Origin: a virus
DNA length: 24,690 bases
Direction: 5' to 3' (one strand)
Virus record (IMG/VR): IMGVR_UViG_3300031974_000461
Coordinates: 1 to 24,690 of that record
This document shows positions 672-18,198 of the stretch, piece after piece. Made by a program: the position numbers and the translations under genes. Under the pieces are notes generated by a model. That model was given only the letters and a program-made list of their open reading frames with translations. It made no database searches and had not been told where the DNA came from. The number at the start of each line of letters is the position of its first letter. The stretch's first letter is position 1.

Positions 672-697
672 TTGAAAAATTTTGAGTGGTACTGATT

Positions 698-1282
698 ATG
701 AAACCTAAAGAAAAACCTCACTACGTTAGCAATAAAGATTTCTCTCAAGCTGTACTGGAGCACTGTACTAATGTACAAGAAGCTAAGAGTGCTGGCGATC
801 CTTTACCAATTGTTCCAGACTACATCGCAAGTTGTTTTCTAAAGATTGCAGAAGGTCTATCTCACAAGGCGAACTTTGTTCGTTACACGTATCGTGAAGA
901 GATGGTTATGGACGCAGTGGAGAACTGCCTCAAAGCGATTGAGAACTACAATATTGAAGCGGCAACCCGATCGGGTAAACCTAACGCATTTGCGTACTTC
1001 ACACAGATTTCTTGGTACGCGTTCCTGCGACGTATCCAGAAAGAAAAGAAACAGCAAGATATCAAGATGAAGTTTATTTCAGAAGCAGATATCAGTGAGT
1101 TCTTGGACGACGACACAGTATCACATCTAAACCAAACATCTCCTTTCGTGGACAATCTCCGTATGCGTATTGATGCAGTAAAATCTGCAGACGATGAATT
1201 CAAAGAGTATGCAAAGGAAGAAAAGAAACGAAAACGCAGGGCAGTATTCGTAGACTCAGACCTATCAGATTATCTTGACTAG
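698..1282 (+). CDS. 55: gp55, sigma factor for late transcription
   Basis: Homologue of T4 gp55, the small sigma-like protein that directs host RNA polymerase to phage late promoters. The product is 194 residues, close to the T4 protein. Recognisable parts are YVSNKDF near the N-terminus and the conserved core with YREEMVMDAVENCL, NAFAYFTQISWYAFLRR and IQKEKKQQD. The protein ends in DLSDYLD; in T4 the gp55 C-terminal tail binds the gp45 clamp, coupling late transcription to replication. The ATG at 698 is chosen over an in-frame GTG at 686 because GAGTGG lies 8 bases upstream and it gives the family-like N-terminus. No late-promoter cluster was recognised with confidence in this window. Confidence 0.93.
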   Translation: MKPKEKPHYVSNKDFSQAVLEHCTNVQEAKSAGDPLPIVPDYIASCFLKIAEGLSHKANFVRYTYREEMVMDAVENCLKAIENYNIEAATRSGKPNAFAYFTQISWYAFLRRIQKEKKQQDIKMKFISEADISEFLDDDTVSHLNQTSPFVDNLRMRIDAVKSADDEFKEYAKEEKKRKRRAVFVDSDLSDYLD

Positions 1283-4174: not shown

Positions 4175-4855
4175 ATGGAACTATCTAGTCGTACGGTTGA
4201 GATCTTGCGAAACTTCTCAACTATTAATCCAAACATCGTAGTCAACGGAGGTAATGTCCTTAAGACTATGTCCATCGCTAAGAACATCGTCTCTCGTGCA
4301 GAAGTTGAAGAAAACTTCCCTAGTACGTTTGGCATCTATGATCTCTCTGAGTTCTTGTCCGTTCTTTCTTTGGTTGATAATCCATCTATCACTTTTGACA
4401 AAAGTTACTGCACTGTTTCTGACGGCAGTGGACTATCTTCTGTCAAGTACTTCTACTCTGACCCAGAGATGCTTTCTGCGCCTAAGAAAGACATCATCAT
4501 GCCTGAGTGCGAAGTCAAGTTTGTGTTGACTAATGAAACACTTGCTAAGATCAAGAAAGCATCTGCTGCTCTTGGTTACGACACAATTTCTATTCGTCCT
4601 TCAGGTGCGGGCAGTGTAGAAATCCGAGTTGTTGATGTTGAAGACTCTACATCAAACTCTTTCTCAGTGTTGGTTGAGGGTTCTTTCCCAGAAGACACTG
4701 ATTTCAATTTCATTATGGGCGTTGGTAATATGAAACTGCTTGGTGAAGACTATGATGTTTCTATTTCAACAAAACTCATTTCTCATTTCCGATCGTTAAC
4801 ATCGGACACACAATACTTTATCGCACTTGAAAAGTCATCAATTTACGGAGGATAA
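4175..4855 (+). CDS. 45: gp45, DNA polymerase sliding clamp
   Basis: Trimeric sliding clamp that tethers gp43 to DNA and also activates late transcription through gp55. At 226 residues it is almost the T4 length. The assignment rests on overall similarity (an N-terminal segment with FSTINPNIVVNGGNVLKTMS, the FGIYDLSEFLSVLSL strand, the C-terminal YFIALEKSS) and on its place after gp47/gp46 and before gp44/gp62. GAGGA precedes the ATG at good spacing. It has its own consensus promoter, consistent with the high demand for clamp. In T4, gp45 is directly followed by gp44; here a cargo block lies between them. Confidence 0.93.
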   Translation: MELSSRTVEILRNFSTINPNIVVNGGNVLKTMSIAKNIVSRAEVEENFPSTFGIYDLSEFLSVLSLVDNPSITFDKSYCTVSDGSGLSSVKYFYSDPEMLSAPKKDIIMPECEVKFVLTNETLAKIKKASAALGYDTISIRPSGAGSVEIRVVDVEDSTSNSFSVLVEGSFPEDTDFNFIMGVGNMKLLGEDYDVSISTKLISHFRSLTSDTQYFIALEKSSIYGG

Positions 4856-10956: not shown

Positions 10957-11808
10957 ATGACTCATAAATCGTTAGAAATTTTTGCAAGTGATCTTCTAAA
11001 GAATCTTGAGAAATATCAGAGCGTAGATCACCCCATTTACATACCTTCAAAAAGTCGCCCCAGAAAGATCACGTCTCAGGCACTTGAGGATGTTGGCATC
11101 TCAAAGTATCTTGTCGTCGTAGAACCTCAAGATTATGATGAGTATCTTTCTGTGTATGATTCTTCTAATCTTCTGTGTATGGATCAGAACGACATGGGCA
11201 TTCAATACGTCCGTAACTTCTGTAAAACACACTCTCGTGATCTCGGGTTTGACTATCATTGGCAGATAGACGACAACATCCGTGACTTTCGTGTACGTAA
11301 GAACAATAAGAATGTGCGAGATAACGCTCGCAACTTAATGTCTGCTGCTGGCGAGTATATGAAAAGATATGACAATATCGGCATCTTAGGTTTCTGTCAT
11401 GTGGGGTTTGCATTTGCCAAGACAAACTCAGTTGATGTGAACAAACAGGTATACAGTTGCGTTCTTGTTAATAACACACTAGACATTGAGTGGCGTCCAG
11501 ACGTAGTTGAAGATACTGATTATAGTCTGCAAGTTCTTGAACAGTCTTACTGCACACTTCTTCTGAATACTTTCTTGATCGGCAAAGAGACGACCAGCAC
11601 GAACTCCGGCGGCAATGATAACTCAGACGAATGGCGTATGGTCAGATCAAAGGGTCTACAGAAGTACTGGCCCGGCGCGTTCAAGATTACAGAACAGTAC
11701 GGCAGAGTCAAAGTGCAACCATCCAAGATCTGGAGAAGATATACTCATATGCCAAAAGGCAGAAATGAAGACCTCAACTCAAATAATTTAGATGAGTTTT
11801 TCGCTTGA
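10957..11808 (+). CDS. TET-associated-type glycosyltransferase (TAGT), putative DNA-base glycosyltransferase
   Basis: A 283-residue GT-A-like enzyme matching the TAGT family, predicted to add sugars to modified bases in phage DNA. Visible signatures are PIYIPSKSRP (26-35), VVVEPQDYDEY (53-63), NDMGIQYVRNF (78-88), HWQIDDNIRDF with the putative metal-binding D105-D106, CVLVNN, EDTDYSLQVL (185-194) and NTFLIGK...SGGN (to 220). RMVRSKGLQKYWPG near the C-terminus also fits. It ends in NLDEFFA, very like the C-terminal clamp-binding peptide of the polymerase encoded next. No hydroxymethylase or TET gene is seen here, so the acceptor base is unknown. It has its own promoter with an almost leaderless start. 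Family call is confident; biochemical role is inferred. Confidence 0.78.
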   Translation: MTHKSLEIFASDLLKNLEKYQSVDHPIYIPSKSRPRKITSQALEDVGISKYLVVVEPQDYDEYLSVYDSSNLLCMDQNDMGIQYVRNFCKTHSRDLGFDYHWQIDDNIRDFRVRKNNKNVRDNARNLMSAAGEYMKRYDNIGILGFCHVGFAFAKTNSVDVNKQVYSCVLVNNTLDIEWRPDVVEDTDYSLQVLEQSYCTLLLNTFLIGKETTSTNSGGNDNSDEWRMVRSKGLQKYWPGAFKITEQYGRVKVQPSKIWRRYTHMPKGRNEDLNSNNLDEFFA

Positions 11809-11834
11809 CACTATACACCAAATTGGTATATAAT
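11805..11834 (+). promoter_or_regulatory. sigma70-type promoter for gp43 with an internal dyad
   Basis: TTGACA (11805-11810) and TATAAT (11829-11834) with an 18-bp spacer. The TGA stop of the TAGT gene (11806-11808) is inside the -35. A 21-bp imperfect palindrome centred on 11822 (ACCAA-A-TTGGT core, TATA flanks, 11812-11832) fills the spacer and overlaps the -10. The ATG at 11842 is 7 bases after the -10. Confidence 0.78.
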
Positions 11835-11841
11835 CCCCTAC

Positions 11842-14316
11842 ATGACTAAATTCTATACGAATGTTCGCCACATCGGCAACAATATCCTGTATCGCGGGTA
11901 CGACAATGGTCAACAGATCAAGACTCGCGTTCCCTTTAAACCAAAACTCTATGTGACCGGCGAATCAAAATCTGATTGGCGAACACTTGATGGTAACTCT
12001 GTCATGGAGATGGAGTTTGAGACAATGAAAGAAGCGACTGAGTTTACTCAACGGTATCGCGATGTCTCTAACTTTAAAGTGTTCGGTCAGAACAACTATG
12101 TCGCTCAGTTCATCTCAGCTTACTGGCCAGATGAAATCAAATTTGAACGTGAACAAGTCCGCGTTTTGAACATTGATATCGAGGTGGCGTCTGATGACGG
12201 ATTTCCAGAACCGAGATCTGCAAAGCATCCTATTATCTCTATCGCTCTTCGCAAGAACGACGGCAACTACTGGGTGTGGGGTCTCAATGACTACACACCA
12301 TCTCGTGAAGATGTTCTCTTTATCCGTTGCGACAATGAGATGGATCTCATTCGCAAGTTCGTAGATCACTGGATCACTTACTCGCCTGATATTATCACTG
12401 GATGGAACACACGATTCTTTGATATCCCGTACATCGTCAACCGATGTTACAATCTCTTCGGTGACGACACGTTAGTAAAACGTCTGTCACCATGGGGTCT
12501 CGTGCGCGAGAGAATTCAGAAGATCAACGGTCGCGAGAACCAAGAGTATGTCATTGAAGGTATTGACCATCTTGACTACATTGAAATCTTCAAGAAGTTC
12601 ACACTCAATACGCTCGGACAGCAAGAGTCGTATCGCCTTGACCACATCGCACATGTCGTCCTCGGTGAGCGAAAACTCTCGTACGAAGAGCATGGTAATC
12701 TGCACACACTGTACCGAGAAGACTATCAGAAGTTCATAGATTACAACGTGAAAGACGTTGAGTTGGTGCACAAGATAGATGAGAAGCTAGACCTAATCTC
12801 TCTGGTACTGACTATGGCGTATCGTGGCGGTGTGAACTACACAGACACTCTCGGCACGACTGCGATCTGGGATTCAATTATCTATCGTATGTTGAACAAG
12901 CAGAAGATCGTGATCCCGCCCAAGACAGAGAAACCCAAGACTCCATATCCTGGCGGGTATGTCAAAGAACCTCAAGTCGGTGCGCATGACTGGGTGACCT
13001 CGTTTGACCTGAACTCTCTCTATCCGAACATCATTGTGCAGTACAATATGTCACCCGAGACTGTGGTTGACGGCATTGTCCCTGATGTCTCTGTTGAAAG
13101 TTTCTTAGACGGCACAACAGTAAATGACTCTGAGTACTCGCTCGCACCCACGGGTGTCAGGTTCTCGCACGATCGTAAGGGTGTGATTCCGCAGATCATT
13201 GAACAGTACTATGCGGAACGTCGGATCATCAAAGACAAGATGCTAGAACTTGATCGTGAGTATCAGAAGAACCCAAGCAAGTCTTTGCAGTACAAGATCA
13301 CATCACTAAATAATCAACAGATGGCGATTAAGATTCTGATGAACTCACTCTATGGCGCTCTGGGCAATAAGTGGTTCCGATACTTTGATCAGCGAGTCGC
13401 CGAGTCTATCACCATGGCTGGTCAGTTGGCCATTAAATGGGCAGAGAGGGCAGTAAACAATGAGATGCAAAACATTCTCAAAACAGATGAAGATTACGTT
13501 GTGGCAATTGACACAGATTCCGTTTATATCCGAATGGGTGATCTTGTCAACCGTTTTAATCCCAACAATCCTGTCAAGTTCTTAGATAAGATCTGCGCCG
13601 ACCACTTTGAGAAATCGCTCGCCAAATCATATGCAGAGATGGCAGAGATCACTGGTGCCTATATCAACCGCATGGAGATGGGACGTGAGGTCATCGCGGA
13701 CCGTGGCATTTGGATGGCGAAGAAGAGATATATTCTCAACGTTTGGAATAACGAAGGGGTGCAATACTCTGAAGCCAAACTGAAGATGATGGGTATTGAA
13801 GCGATCAAGTCGTCTACTCCGCAAGTCGTCCGCGACAAGTTCAAAGAGATCTTCCGCGTGATCATCGAAGGCACCGAGTCTGACACTCAAGCGTTTATTC
13901 GTGACTTTCGTACGGAGTTCAGTAATCTACCTCCAGAAGATGTGTCGTTCCCTCGCGGTGTGTCAGACCTGAACAAGTGGCAAGATCGTAAGACAGTCTT
14001 TAAGAAAGCATGTCCTATTCATGTGCGCGGCGCACTGTGTTATAATAATGCGATAAAAGAAAACGGTCTTGAATCGCGATATGAGTCTGTGAAGACTGGC
14101 GAGAAAATCAAGTTCTGTTATCTCAAGGTCCCCAACAGTCTAGGTCAGAACGTCGTGAGTTATCCACTCAATCTGCCACCAGAACTCAATCTGCACAAGT
14201 TTGTGGATTATAGTGTGATGTTTGACAAAACGTTTTTAGATCCTCTTGAGCCCATTCTTGACGCTGTCGGATGGGAGTCCGAACCGAAAGCGACACTTGA
14301 AGACTTCTTCGGTTGA
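11842..14316 (+). CDS. 43: gp43, family B replicative DNA polymerase
   Basis: Replicative polymerase with 3'-5' proofreading, 824 residues (T4 898). Exo I is [11 protein letters not shown] (D112, E114), Exo [16 protein letters not shown] and Exo [12 protein letters not shown]. Pol motif A is [11 protein letters not shown] (D389), motif [10 protein letters not shown] (497-505) and motif [10 protein letters not shown] (D557, D559). All catalytic acids are present. The protein ends in TLEDFFG, corresponding to the gp45-binding C-terminal peptide of T4-type polymerases. It is intact, with no intein or split. Its stop codon is embedded in the -35 of the dam promoter. Confidence 0.98.
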
Positions 14317-14341
14317 CACACGGACTCTGTTATAGTATAAT
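14313..14341 (+). promoter_or_regulatory. Consensus sigma70 promoter for the Dam-like gene
   Basis: TTGACA (14313-14318), 17-bp spacer, TATAAT (14336-14341). The gp43 TGA stop (14314-14316) is part of the -35. ATG 14348 lies 6 bases after the -10, again suggesting a leaderless message. Confidence 0.8.
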
Positions 14342-14347
14342 ACACGT

Positions 14348-15232
14348 ATGAAAGATCTAAAAACACCTTTAAGATATCCTGGTGGCAAGTCGCGAGCAGT
14401 TGACTTTCTATTCTCACGTGAGAATCTACCTGTCAAAAACATTAAAGAGTATCGCGAGCCGTTTCTCGGTGGTGGATCTTGCGCATTTGCTTTCACTAAA
14501 AAGTTTCCTGATATTCCTGTGCGAGTCAACGACAAGTACTATAATCTGTATTGCTTCTGGCTGACTCTACAGAAAGAAGGCGATGCACTTACTCAGAAAC
14601 TTCATGATATCAAAGACGAACTGCTCAGTGCGTCTGACCCTAAACAAGCACACTATGACTATTATCATGTTGTGACGGACGTGCTTGCAAACCCTAAGAA
14701 TGAGTTTGAGACTGCATGGGCATTCTATATTCTCAATCGGTGTTCTTTCTCTGGTCTCACAGAGTTGTCTGCATCATTCTCTAAGGGTTCTTGCTTTGAT
14801 CATTTTCATCACAGACTGATCGGCAAACTCCCCAAGTACTCTAAACTCATGCAGAACTGGACGATCACTAATGAAGATTACTCCACAATGTTCTGTGACG
14901 ACCCTGACGTGTTTGTGTTCTGTGATCCGCCTTATGATATTGCCACTTTCATCTATGGTAAGGGTGGTGACATGCACAACACATTTGACCACAAAGAGTT
15001 CTTTGAGTGTACTGACGCGTCTGGTAATATGGTCATGATCACCTACAACTCAAACGACACACTGCAAGAAGCATACAAGAACTGGAATCAAAAGATCTGG
15101 GATCTGGTATACACAATGGTGTCAAGTGCATCTTATCGTGAGAACGAGCATCTAAAGAAAGAGTTGCTTATCTGGAACTACGAGACGCCTGAAGCAATAC
15201 CAAAACAGACTCTTGAAGAATTTTTTGTTTAA
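14348..15232 (+). CDS. dam: Dam-type DNA adenine N6-methyltransferase (D12 class)
   Basis: A 294-residue MethyltransfD12 enzyme (pfam MethyltransfD12), probably methylating adenine in GATC or a similar site. The SAM-binding RYPGGK motif is at 9-14, FLGGGSCAF follows, and the catalytic DPPY is at 193-196 in FVFCDPPYDIATF. ILNRCSFSGL and SFSKGSC are typical of the central target-recognition region. Length is near E. coli and T4 Dam. The C-terminus ends in QTLEEFFV, almost the same as the polymerase tail LEDFFG, suggesting binding to the gp45 clamp. No matching restriction endonuclease is present. It probably protects phage DNA from host nucleases or marks replicated DNA. Confidence 0.92.
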   Translation: MKDLKTPLRYPGGKSRAVDFLFSRENLPVKNIKEYREPFLGGGSCAFAFTKKFPDIPVRVNDKYYNLYCFWLTLQKEGDALTQKLHDIKDELLSASDPKQAHYDYYHVVTDVLANPKNEFETAWAFYILNRCSFSGLTELSASFSKGSCFDHFHHRLIGKLPKYSKLMQNWTITNEDYSTMFCDDPDVFVFCDPPYDIATFIYGKGGDMHNTFDHKEFFECTDASGNMVMITYNSNDTLQEAYKNWNQKIWDLVYTMVSSASYRENEHLKKELLIWNYETPEAIPKQTLEEFFV

Positions 15233-15322: not shown

Positions 15323-16267
15323 ATGTATGAATTAACCATATTCAAAAATCAGTTTGATAACAAGACACACCGCAGAACCACGTTCATGTCGTGGATGGAC
15401 TTTGTGGTATGTCTTCGTGATTCTTACACTAAACCAGGAGAGAAAGGTGGACCCAATAGTTCTCCTCTTCTTACTCCTGCTGTGTTCGACGTGGGTACGA
15501 CGCGTAGTAATAGATCTGTTTTATATTGGAGTTCTTGGTGTTGTGTTGACGTGGATGATCCTATTCACGGTGTTACTAATAGTGAGTTACTAAGAGAGTG
15601 GTTGCATCGTAAGTATGGTCAATATGACTATGTCGTCTACAACACAGCGAGCAGTACAGAAGAGAATTTAAAATTCCGTATCATATTTCGTCTTGATGAG
15701 AATGTTGAGAATAGTCGTATCAAAGCGTTCTGGCATGCACTCAACACAGAACTCGGTGATCTTGGTGACCCACAGACGAAAGACCTTGCACGTATGTACT
15801 ATGTGCCTGCACAGTATCCGAAAGCATACTCGTTCTTCATGGTTAACTCTGGTGGCAGTGCAATGAATGTTTCTGAGTTGATTGCGAAACATCCGTACCA
15901 TGAAAAGACTGGTAATGATTTTTTAGATAAACTGCCACTTGAATTGCAACAAGCTGTAATACAGCATCGCAAAAGTAGCCTAAATAACCTGGACTATAAG
16001 TGGTCGTCTTATCGCGATTGTCCGTTTTGGCCAAAGAAACTTGCGGCTGAGTATCAGATGATTAGCGGAAGTGGTTGGTATGCTAAGATGTATCGTATCG
16101 CAGTTGCCGTTGCAGGTAATGCATACTCTAAGGGGTACCCTATCACGTCAAGACAGATAGAGGAACTGTGTCGTGAGTTTGATCGTGACACTGGTAATTG
16201 GTATGAGAACCGTCCGCTTCATGTAGAAGCAGACAGAGCACTAGAATATATTTACAGGAATGGATAA
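15323..16267 (+). CDS. Primase-like protein, possible AEP/PrimPol-type
   Basis: A 314-residue protein located among replication genes. The central part resembles archaeo-eukaryotic primase/polymerase domains: a hydrophobic strand with an acidic CVDVDD triad (74-79), then YDYVVYNTAS and a basic strand LKFRIIFRLDE. Further on is KDLARMYYVPAQYP, like the D/R...YxPG region of AEP-type replication proteins. The C-terminal third is helical. T4 itself uses a DnaG-like primase (gp61), which is not in this window. The assignment is a motif impression and a different nucleotide-handling enzyme is possible. The TAA stop overlaps the epimerase start region. Confidence 0.4.
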   Translation: MYELTIFKNQFDNKTHRRTTFMSWMDFVVCLRDSYTKPGEKGGPNSSPLLTPAVFDVGTTRSNRSVLYWSSWCCVDVDDPIHGVTNSELLREWLHRKYGQYDYVVYNTASSTEENLKFRIIFRLDENVENSRIKAFWHALNTELGDLGDPQTKDLARMYYVPAQYPKAYSFFMVNSGGSAMNVSELIAKHPYHEKTGNDFLDKLPLELQQAVIQHRKSSLNNLDYKWSSYRDCPFWPKKLAAEYQMISGSGWYAKMYRIAVAVAGNAYSKGYPITSRQIEELCREFDRDTGNWYENRPLHVEADRALEYIYRNG

Positions 16268-16268
16268 A

Positions 16269-17210
16269 ATGGAAAGAGTTTTAGTTACAGGTGCCGCTGG
16301 ATTCATTGGGTCTCAGTTGTCAAAACGCCTGATGGATCGTGGACTGACTGTCAAGGGTATTGACAATTTTAACAGTCACTTATACACTCCAGAGTTGAAA
16401 CGAGATCGTATGGTACACTTCGGTCTAGATATTTGGGGATGTGACCTACAAGACTCAATTAAGTTAGAAGCACTTTTACGTGACTTTCAACCAGACACGA
16501 TTGTGCACCTAGCTGCAATGGCAGGTGTGCGAGACTCTCTTGGCAAAGAAAAGAGTTATCACGCAAACAACATTGACGCGACACAGAATCTCATTGATAT
16601 CTGTAAAGAGCATCTTCCAGAAACACGAATCGTTTATGCGTCAACGTCATGCATCTATGCTGGCGCACCAGTGCCATGGGTAGAGGGTCGCGAACATGGT
16701 AAGCAGTTGAACGCATACGGTTATACTAAGTGGGCAAACGAATGTCAGATGCAGTCGTCTGGTCTGAACACCGTCGGTTTACGATTCTTCACAGTCTACG
16801 GACCGTGGGGTCGTCCTGATATGGCACTGTTTGATTTCACTAAAAATATACTTGACGAAAACGAGATAACCGTGTATAATTATGGTGACATGAAGCGTGA
16901 CTTTACTTACGTGGATGACATTCTAGACGGTATTGAAATCGTTCTAGACAACACAGAAATTGAGTCTGGTGAAATCTTCAACATTGGTCGTGGCGAGCAA
17001 GTTGAACTCATGGACTTTATCGGTGAGATTGAAAAGAACACTGGTAAAAAAGCAATTAAGAATTTAGCTCCTAAGCATCCTGCTGACACAAAAGAGACTT
17101 GGTCAGATACGTCTAAACTAGGCGCTCTTGGTTACAGTCCCAAAGTGAGTATCGCAGAGGGTGTTGAGAAGTTTTATGAATGGTATAAAGAATATAACGA
17201 GGTAGACTAA
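16269..17210 (+). CDS. NAD-dependent nucleotide-sugar epimerase (UDP-glucuronate 4-epimerase-like)
   Basis: An extended short-chain dehydrogenase of 313 residues. The NAD-binding TGAAGFIGSQ is at 7-16, and VHLAAMAGVRDS is typical. The catalytic YASTSCIY serine region and Y150-x3-K154 in AYGYTKW are intact. LRFFTVYGPWGRPDMALF is characteristic of the UDP-glucuronate 4-epimerase/GalE-like branch. It would interconvert UDP-sugars in the cytoplasm, probably using the product of the dehydrogenase encoded next. ATG 16269 is preferred to ATG 16260 because the AGGA at 16255-16258 is then well spaced. Exact substrate cannot be fixed from sequence; a dehydratase or decarboxylase is less likely. Confidence 0.85.
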   Translation: MERVLVTGAAGFIGSQLSKRLMDRGLTVKGIDNFNSHLYTPELKRDRMVHFGLDIWGCDLQDSIKLEALLRDFQPDTIVHLAAMAGVRDSLGKEKSYHANNIDATQNLIDICKEHLPETRIVYASTSCIYAGAPVPWVEGREHGKQLNAYGYTKWANECQMQSSGLNTVGLRFFTVYGPWGRPDMALFDFTKNILDENEITVYNYGDMKRDFTYVDDILDGIEIVLDNTEIESGEIFNIGRGEQVELMDFIGEIEKNTGKKAIKNLAPKHPADTKETWSDTSKLGALGYSPKVSIAEGVEKFYEWYKEYNEVD

Positions 17211-17211
17211 T

Positions 17212-18198
17212 ATGTCTAGAACAATGCCAAATGGCGAACCAGCACGATTCCGTATTGGCATCGTGGGTCACGGTTTTGTAGGTCAAGCAGTAGAGTATGC
17301 GTTCACGCATCCTATGGTTGATTTCTCACTGTACGATCCAAAATACAACACAAGTCTAGACGATCTGTCTTCAGCCAGTCTAGAAGAAACTCCTACTTGT
17401 TTTTTCATCTGTGCGCCGACTCCGTCAAATGATGATGGATCTGTCAACTCTTCTATTGTTGAAGATAGTGCATTGAGATGTTTGAAAGAGACAGACGCAC
17501 TTGTGATTGTTAAGTCTACAATCACTCCTGATGCGATTGACCGAATCTATCAACAGATCACTAAAGATCAAGCGGATCGTTTTGCATACAACCCTGAGTT
17601 CTTGACAGAAAAGAACGCAAAGGCAGATTTCGTATCTGCAAAGTTTCATGTGATCGGTGGCACTCCAGCGTCTGTTATGGAAACGATTGACATCTATGAG
17701 ATCTTCGGTGCATGTGAGTCTAATGATTATCACCGAATGTCTGCATATGAAGCGTCATTTGTGAAATACACGATCAACTCATTCTTGTCTACTAAGATCA
17801 CATTCTTTAACCAGTTGTATGATCTTATCAACATGTATGGTTGTAATTATAACACGGTAGTTCGCGCTGCAGGTAAAGACGATCGTGTTGGTATGGGGCA
17901 CACACGAGTCCCTGGGTTTGATGGTAAGCGTGGTTTTGGCGGCGCATGTCTTCCAAAAGATACTAAGGCGTTCTTGAGGTTCTCTACGTTTGAAGATCAA
18001 AATGGCAACGAACACTCTTTTGATCTTTTAGAAAGAGTACTTGACATCAATAGTGATTATCGTGTACAATACGAACTTGATGAGCGTGAAAAAGTAAACA
18101 ATATTACATTCGTAGATTTTGGAGGCAAGAAGAATGTCAATAATGGACAAACTGAAGAAGAACTCGAAGATAAAGGAGACGGCGACACTCTCCACTAG
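17212..18198 (+). CDS. ugd: UDP-glucose 6-dehydrogenase-like enzyme, short form
   Basis: NAD-dependent oxidation of a UDP-hexose to the uronic acid. The Rossmann motif GIVGHGFVGQAVE is near the N-terminus, and FICAPTPSNDDGS, KSTITPDA and YNPEFLTEKNA are all family signatures. The catalytic cysteine is C246 in FGGACLPKDTKAF. The protein has 328 residues; usual bacterial enzymes have about 390-450. Sequence after the catalytic loop is short, so the C-terminal UDP-binding domain seems missing or much reduced. The last 65 bases overlap the start of uvsX in another frame and encode an acidic tail. With the epimerase it could supply UDP-glucuronate/galacturonate-type donors for the glycosyltransferases. 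Confidence 0.85.
   Translation: MSRTMPNGEPARFRIGIVGHGFVGQAVEYAFTHPMVDFSLYDPKYNTSLDDLSSASLEETPTCFFICAPTPSNDDGSVNSSIVEDSALRCLKETDALVIVKSTITPDAIDRIYQQITKDQADRFAYNPEFLTEKNAKADFVSAKFHVIGGTPASVMETIDIYEIFGACESNDYHRMSAYEASFVKYTINSFLSTKITFFNQLYDLINMYGCNYNTVVRAAGKDDRVGMGHTRVPGFDGKRGFGGACLPKDTKAFLRFSTFEDQNGNEHSFDLLERVLDINSDYRVQYELDEREKVNNITFVDFGGKKNVNNGQTEEELEDKGDGDTLH

Follow-up and report, generated by a model that had tools for sequence, protein, structure and literature searches.

Sliding clamps remain on the DNA once the polymerase has moved on and also function in late transcription, and the T4 alpha-glucosyltransferase (alpha-GT) reportedly, from the work of Sommer et al. in 2004, binds the clamp gp45. 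The closest described clamp ligands are the T4/RB69 polymerase gp43, whose C-terminal clamp-interacting peptide (SLDFLF) docks in the gp45 pocket (PMC3012046, PMC12746103), the T4 peptide having been seen inside it (PMC12746103), and the gp55/gp33 epitopes, the C-terminus of T4 gp55 being a known clamp-binding epitope in a system where gp45 doubles as a mobile element in late transcription (PMC2988020). Among DNA-modifying enzymes, T4 alpha-GT pulls down gp45 and the contact was confirmed, with the alpha:beta glucosylation ratio set mainly by expression level and not by clamp binding (PMC13216743). In the literature searched, without subscription journals and preprints, it was the only hypermodification enzyme found tied to a clamp.

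We analysed a window of 24,690 nucleotides (IMG/VR record IMGVR_UViG_3300031974_000461, positions 1 to 24,690; 33 genes scored) in which a TET-associated glycosyltransferase (TAGT) and a Dam-type methylase end like the phage's own polymerase (Table 1). These tails resemble the T4/RB69 gp43 and gp55/gp33 epitopes in being C-terminal, about 6-10 residues long, hydrophobic plus acidic and preceded by a variable linker, with the partner gp45 encoded nearby, but their carriers are DNA base-modifying enzymes and not a polymerase or transcription factors. T4 alpha-GT likewise transfers sugar to a DNA base and binds the clamp of its phage; however, it is not a TAGT, its C-terminus (...EQFDIITK) has no such tail, and it is a single precedent, whereas here a whole modification set plus Dam is concerned. 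Judging from the sequences, it is highly probable that the TAGT and Dam tails are clamp-interacting peptides of the polymerase-tail kind, which would dock on gp45 and allow early modification of the new duplex.

Table 1. Positions of the tailed proteins, their tails and the clamp in the window
Feature	Position	Strand	Evidence
TAGT, TET-associated glycosyltransferase (PF20691), 283 aa	10957..11808	+	Pfam E 1e-31; PHROG 842
TAGT tail LDEFFA, putative clamp-docking peptide	11788..11805	+	PSSM 13.4; orthologue conservation
gp43-type family B DNA polymerase, 824 aa	11842..14316	+	PF00136, phrog_262
gp43 tail LEDFFG, counterpart of T4 clamp-interacting peptide SLDFLF	14296..14313	+	PSSM 18.2
Dam-type D12 adenine methyltransferase, 294 aa	14348..15232	+	PF02086 E 2e-27; AF2 model
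Dam tail LEEFFV, putative clamp-docking peptide	15212..15229	+	PSSM 17.0; relatives' conservation
gp55-type late sigma factor	686..1282	+	phrog_234 E 2e-50
gp55 end LSDYLD, family's variant tail	1262-1279	+	ORF translation
gp45-type sliding clamp, proposed partner of the tails	4175..4855	+	PF09116; T4/RB69 gp45 structure matches

Tailed proteins and clamp of the window

The window TAGT scores 110.6 bits against the Pfam profile (curated cutoff 27.5), and its PHROG match is beta-glucosyl-HMC-alpha-glucosyltransferase. The Dam protein is a D12 adenine methyltransferase by its profile (97 bits, cutoff 22), by an invariant DPPY motif at residues 193-196 and by its Dam fold, the AF2 model matching 7m6b, E. 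coli Dam, DpnM and T4 Dam in the PDB. The window gp45 matches the T4 and RB69 gp45 structures 1czd, 6drt and 1b77/1b8h and has hydrophobic residues at four of the five RB69 pocket positions (pocket from PMC3012046), which favours docking. Against docking, basic residues are lost, and Trp199 is aligned with Ser, Arg32 with Met and Lys204 with a gap.

As read from the open reading frames, TAGT ends in ...NNLDEFFA, gp43 in ...TLEDFFG, Dam in ...TLEEFFV and gp55 in ...DLSDYLD. With a six-position matrix (PSSM) trained only on gp43 tails from other contigs, scores of 13 or more were reached by just three of the 33 window genes, gp43 (18.2), Dam (17.0) and TAGT (13.4), the fourth-ranking gene scoring 3.7, and among the 6,746 12-mers from the interior of these window proteins not one scored 12 or above. 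The likeness of these three tails is thus confirmed as real and far beyond chance. An earlier note had also placed the gp55 end beside them as a shared clamp-binding-type tail; the likeness holds for gp43, TAGT and Dam, while gp55 carries only a weaker, different variant (matrix score -2.1), its family as a whole having a conserved DLSxF[FL]-type end. Because the three tails are encoded by different codons (CTT GAA GAC TTC TTC in gp43, CTT GAA GAA TTT TTT in Dam and TTA GAT GAG TTT TTC in TAGT), they do not represent a recently copied DNA repeat.

Conservation and position of the tails

The expectation that the tails are conserved in homologues, whose failure would have counted against the earlier note, was borne out by the comparison of C-termini. 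L-x-[DE]-F-[FLI] is kept in all seven distinct window-type TAGT orthologues (7/7), the second TAGT paralogue on those same contigs having no tail, and among the relatives of Dam the tail is present in 35/48 proteins by the strict and 46/48 by the relaxed definition. The enzyme body and the linker diverge among orthologues and the tail is constant, with silent variation that uses all six Leu and both Phe codons at the key positions of the Dam and TET tails. In the cyanophage-type Dam the tail was found in 0/29 proteins, which stop where the linker of the window-type Dam begins. Relaxed-pattern matches in these cyanophage proteins (LLLLNYVV) belong to the final beta-strand and hence are not tails.

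In the AF2 model of Dam (pLDDT 82, folded core) residues 284-294 fall below a pLDDT of 50 and are linker-like, with a short helix at 289-293, so that the tail is predicted to sit beyond the folded domain, after a flexible linker. The model of the window TAGT, built from 7 sequences, has a pLDDT of 41, too poor to judge its linker, and the alignment of distant TAGTs held no stretch conserved enough to serve as a search query.

The same tail on other enzymes of related phages

The pattern is broader than first proposed, extending to TET dioxygenases, ADDT amino acid:DNA transferases, hmdU DNA kinases, GNAT acetyltransferases, GT4 glycosyltransferases and other methylases. In an unbiased scan of 80 ORF families from related contigs, a strict-tail fraction of at least 25% was limited to gp43, Dam, TET (69/72), the TAGT clades (8/8, 3/4 and, in the window clade with tail-less paralogues included, 3/12), ADDT (16/42), GNAT (17/43), GT4 (4/4) and one small unknown family (5/5), these IMG/VR counts not being independent events. 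The remaining families had at most 6%, with none in helicase, primase, the clamp-loader large subunit, RegA, UvsX, sugar-nucleotide enzymes or Hsp20. The tail is also found on other methylases of related phages, and tails are confined to DNA-acting proteins. Two baseplate proteins with moderate scores, ending in GIDDFF (C48C1) and GMENFF (DLP6), were taken as unrelated.

Such enzymes can do without the tail, since it is absent from several modification enzymes of clamp-encoding phages, namely T4 Dam, T4 beta-GT, the TAGT of Aeromonas phage 65 and the ADDT of Cr30. It was also found in 0/18 TETs of Pelagibacter-type podophages, which together with the cyanophage-type Dam serve as negative controls.

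Match to the polymerase tail, lineage by lineage

In other phages that encode a clamp, the tails of modification enzymes change together with that of the polymerase. In Vibrio D506 the polymerase ends in KARKLW, the ADDT in KTRKLW and the hmdU kinases in STKRLW/KTKKLW; in Cygsa01 the polymerase has SVMDFFS and the enzymes SVLDLF, NVFDLF and DLMGFFQ; in Matapan NLLSMM is matched by SLLGLM and NLMSLL, and in Cr30 DLSSLFD by DLSKLF. Homologous ADDTs switch their tail in step with their own polymerase, and over nine lineages the co-variation has a permutation p of about 5e-5, the exceptions being the tail-less Cr30 ADDT and phage 65 TAGT. Such tracking would be expected if enzymes and polymerase docked at one and the same site of the clamp.

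The bacterial beta-clamp motif QLxLF and the eukaryotic PIP box are similar in that one short linear motif docks many DNA enzymes on a clamp. Unlike these, window-type tails have no leading Gln and appear specific to gp45-type clamps, the exception being P12024L-type TAGTs (QxxLF/QLEIF), the only ones with the Gln, whose C-termini NQLEIF, NQTQLF and NQTTLF come near the bacterial motif.

Probable docking on the clamp and the alternatives

Since in a large group of phages the DNA-decorating enzymes end like the polymerase, whose tail docks on the clamp in T4, they are probably held on the same ring. From the tails themselves, from how well they are kept, from their confinement to proteins that act on DNA and from their match to the polymerase we infer that the tailed enzymes most likely dock on gp45 through the polymerase's site. 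Each would consist of a folded catalytic domain, a short variable linker and L-[DE]-x-F-F, which may form about one helical turn and enter the hydrophobic pocket that lies where the two domains of a gp45 subunit meet. The ring, a trimer, would offer several pockets, so that modification enzymes could sit on it beside the polymerase or occupy rings that stay on the DNA in its wake. Docked enzymes may then modify the newly made duplex processively and early, by adenine methylation and by sugar addition to the hydroxymethylated base. As to timing, the tailed enzymes probably ride the polymerase's ring and mark DNA soon after copying.

Binding to the clamp could nevertheless occur without coupling to the fork, the tails providing processivity or residence on clamps on finished DNA, or regulating the polymerase by competition. 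The tails fit this reading as well as they fit the modification right behind the fork put forward in the earlier note. It is a serious possibility, which we hold to be somewhat short of even, given that gp45 also takes part in late transcription as a mobile element (PMC2988020) and that the T4 alpha:beta ratio is not set by clamp binding (PMC13216743).

It is unlikely that the tails contact another replisome or transcription partner in common with the polymerase, such as the single-strand binding protein, a helicase loader or RNA polymerase, which would bring the enzymes to replication by a route other than the clamp. Our comparisons establish a polymerase-type tail, from which the clamp is deduced as partner, and the KLW (Vibrio D506) and LLSMM (Matapan) tails have no characterised partner; yet the T4/RB69 polymerase tail has been seen in the gp45 pocket (PMC3012046, PMC12746103), and the P12024L-type ends resemble a motif for a clamp. 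Chance, or recombination of gene ends between neighbours, is very improbable, for although the genes of TAGT, gp43 and Dam lie side by side there, the codons differ, the matrix scores exclude chance, tails occur solely on DNA-acting proteins, the C48C1 TET is tailed about 16 kb from its polymerase, and the Cr30 TAGT and polymerase lie in different genome parts.

The clamp as a possible platform for hypermodification

Returning to docking on gp45, we regard it as fairly likely that the clamp is a platform for hypermodification, on which TET, HMUDK/HMUD2, ADDT, GNAT, TAGT, GT4, Dam and other methylases would all end in a docking peptide that follows the dialect of the polymerase of their phage, and that clamp-less phages may use the host beta-clamp motif. 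On such a platform TET would oxidise the base, HMUDK/HMUD2 would phosphorylate hmdU, ADDT would transfer an amino acid, GNAT would acylate, TAGT and GT4 would glycosylate, and Dam and the other methylases would methylate. The ViI-like thymidine hypermodification pathway (hmdU kinases, ADDT) has the same enzyme families and acts on DNA after replication; no description of replisome docking by polymerase-matched tails in this pathway was found in the literature searched. A clamp-docked set would offer phages a mechanism for modifying almost all target bases ahead of attack by host restriction or CRISPR nucleases, and the natural tail swaps with polymerase dialect would provide many matched and mismatched enzyme/clamp pairs.

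If this is true, a polymerase-matched tail is a sequence tag for unknown DNA-modifying enzymes. The tail alone pointed to a TET, two TAGTs, the ADDT family, the GNAT family and an N6/N4 methylase with no help from earlier annotation, and it should therefore expose more among unannotated phage proteins. One such tail-based prediction came true, as a DLP6 'hypothetical protein' picked solely by its DLSSFFN end turned out to be a TAGT.

Clamp-type tails in the window

In this 24.7-kb piece of the genome of a phage related to T4 (virus record G000), for which phage C48C1, assigned to Kyanoviridae, was the nearest annotated relative found, the genes for the gp45 clamp, gp44, gp62 and gp55 (C-terminal end DLSDYLD) all lie upstream of the TAGT-gp43-Dam group. 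The earlier note had proposed that gp43, TAGT and Dam share a clamp-type tail, and a matrix trained solely on polymerase tails from other contigs indeed placed them first among the 33 window genes (gp43, 18.2; Dam, 17.0; TAGT, 13.4), the next gene scoring 3.7. None of the 6,746 internal 12-residue windows of the window proteins scored 12 or more with this matrix, the three tails are encoded by differing codons, and a chance origin is excluded.

Features of the window
Feature	Position	Remark
phrog_527 small protein	160-576	adjoins gp55; internal LSLEEFL about 20 residues before the end (LSLDDFL in C48C1)
gp45 clamp	4175-4855	RB69 Trp199 replaced by Ser
TAGT	10957-11808	first of three adjacent genes
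gp43 polymerase	11842-14316	between TAGT and Dam
D12 Dam methylase	14348-15232	after gp43; end TLEEFFV
NAD-dependent epimerase and UDP-glucose dehydrogenase	16260-18198	also in C48C1

The epimerase and UDP-glucose dehydrogenase possibly supply a uronic-acid nucleotide sugar. Both genes occur in C48C1 as well, and no TAGT was found there.

Conservation among homologues

The tail was kept in homologues of both enzymes. Every window-type TAGT (52-87% identical) ends in L-x-[DE]-F-[FLI], and several contigs with a tailed TAGT carry a second paralogue, about 30-34% identical, with the tail-less end NEMESANEE, NEQEELDVE or similar (contigs L003, L004, L005, L006 and L010), which provides a natural untailed control. 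In Dam relatives of about 57% identity or more, [ST]L[DE]xFF persists, preceded by a short linker that varies in sequence; at about 50% identity the ends become looser, for example LLKFIS and LQSWL. In cyanophage-type Dams, all 29 distinct ends coincide with the end of the catalytic domain (KELLLLNYVV) and have no tail, indicating that the Dam tail is an add-on whose gain or loss does not depend on the body of the enzyme. The AF2 model of the window Dam shows a confident Dam fold, with the E. coli, T4 and DpnM enzymes as PDB matches, followed by a low-confidence linker with a one-turn helix at 289-293.

Other enzyme families carrying the tail

In C48C1, the only clear match to the matrix besides gp43 and Dam was a 472-aa hypothetical protein ending in SLEEFFV, which is a Tet_JBP dioxygenase (TET; E 3e-17). 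The tail was present in 69 of 72 distinct TET relatives from IMG/VR, whose rows are of common ancestry, so that tail counts are descriptive; the other three comprise two abnormal ends and one near-miss (SDLDAFF). The key Leu and Phe residues in the tails of Dam, TET and gp43 are encoded by a free mixture of synonymous codons, a signature of selection on the amino acids. An unbiased scan of 1,714 ORFs in 80 families picked out the amino acid:DNA transferase ADDT, a GNAT acetyltransferase, two more TAGT clades and a GT4 glycosyltransferase; an N6/N4 methylase (PF01555), a protein whose NPPF motif resembles that of methylases, and HNH proteins were isolated cases. Tails were absent from its replication and metabolism families, and from GATase_6, P-loop kinase and amidoligase of modification operons.

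A compact operon on contig L098 (2701-6979), GATase_6-GNAT-ADDT-TET-P-loop nucleotide kinase 3, recurs in many TET contigs and apparently encodes a TET-initiated hypermodification pathway. Small proteins of 105-126 aa (contigs L169, L171, L100, L124 and L111) and HNH endonucleases also end in L-E-x-F-[FLM] (see also L170:5930-6622 and L098:7024-7521); these are perhaps clamp-docked nucleases.

Enzyme tails match the polymerase of their own lineage

The strongest evidence is the lineage-by-lineage match between enzyme and polymerase tails, in phages picked solely for an ADDT, TET or TAGT gene. The matrix, built on polymerases of relatives, is blind to dialects such as KLW, which were compared directly. 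In Vibrio phage D506 the polymerase ends in KARKLW, ADDT in KTRKLW and the hmdU kinases in STKRLW and KTKKLW, the latter assigned by annotation and likeness to Cygsa01 HMUD2. Corresponding sets were found in Pseudomonas phage Cygsa01 (polymerase SVMDFFS; kinases SVLDLF and NVFDLF; ADDT DLMGFFQ), Salmonella phage Matapan (polymerase NLLSMM; kinase SLLGLM; ADDT NLMSLL), the similar Dickeya phage Ds25CZ and Caulobacter phage Cr30 (polymerase DLSSLFD; TAGT-like protein DLSKLF). DLP6 has TLDSFFA, TLGDFFV and DLSSFFN, the last on a protein guessed from its tail alone and confirmed as TAGT. In Vibrio phage VPALA, STAKRLW is the common end of ADDT, hmdU kinase and a methylase; the end of its split polymerase (L243:6505-7533 and L268) reads AKR-stop-W where these read AKRLW, which would reflect either loss of the tail or an error in the sequencing.

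Mean tail similarity was 20.3 to the own polymerase and 10.7 to those of other lineages (p about 5e-5 on permuting polymerases among nine lineages, those with tail-less enzymes included). ADDTs about 50% identical in the body have tails unrelated to each other, each resembling that of its own polymerase.

Proposed docking to the clamp

In T4, a hydrophobic pocket of gp45 holds the polymerase peptide SLDFLF as a single helical turn (PMC12746103), and the ends of gp43, gp55 and gp33 are interchangeable (PMC2988020). Compared by sequence with the RB69 pocket (PMC3012046), the window clamp has hydrophobic residues at 39, 107, 109 and 217 and Ser at 199, and both basic contacts are missing. Related phages have Ser, Cys or Gly at position 199, a change that possibly gives room for a double-Phe tail instead of the F-L-F of T4. 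We infer that the modification enzymes would dock in this pocket, the site of the polymerase peptide, and it is plausible that, once docked, they would modify new DNA processively and early. T4 itself has a clamp-binding DNA glucosyltransferase, since alpha-GT binds gp45 whereas beta-GT does not; there, clamp binding is secondary for the alpha:beta ratio, which is dominated by promoter and translation strength (PMC13216743).

Short-tailed phages of the Pelagibacter HTVC112P type served as a control: none of their 18 distinct TET ends had the tail, and the stretches inspected showed no gp45. The TAGTs of P12024L, a small phage, and of two relatives end in NQLEIF, NQTQLF or NQTTLF, close to the bacterial host beta-clamp motif QLxLF, and the P12024L methylase ends in QQTLF (QxxLF-type ends at L115:3119-4514 and on contigs L119 and L120). 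These few sequences suggest that such phages may use the same docking strategy with the host clamp.
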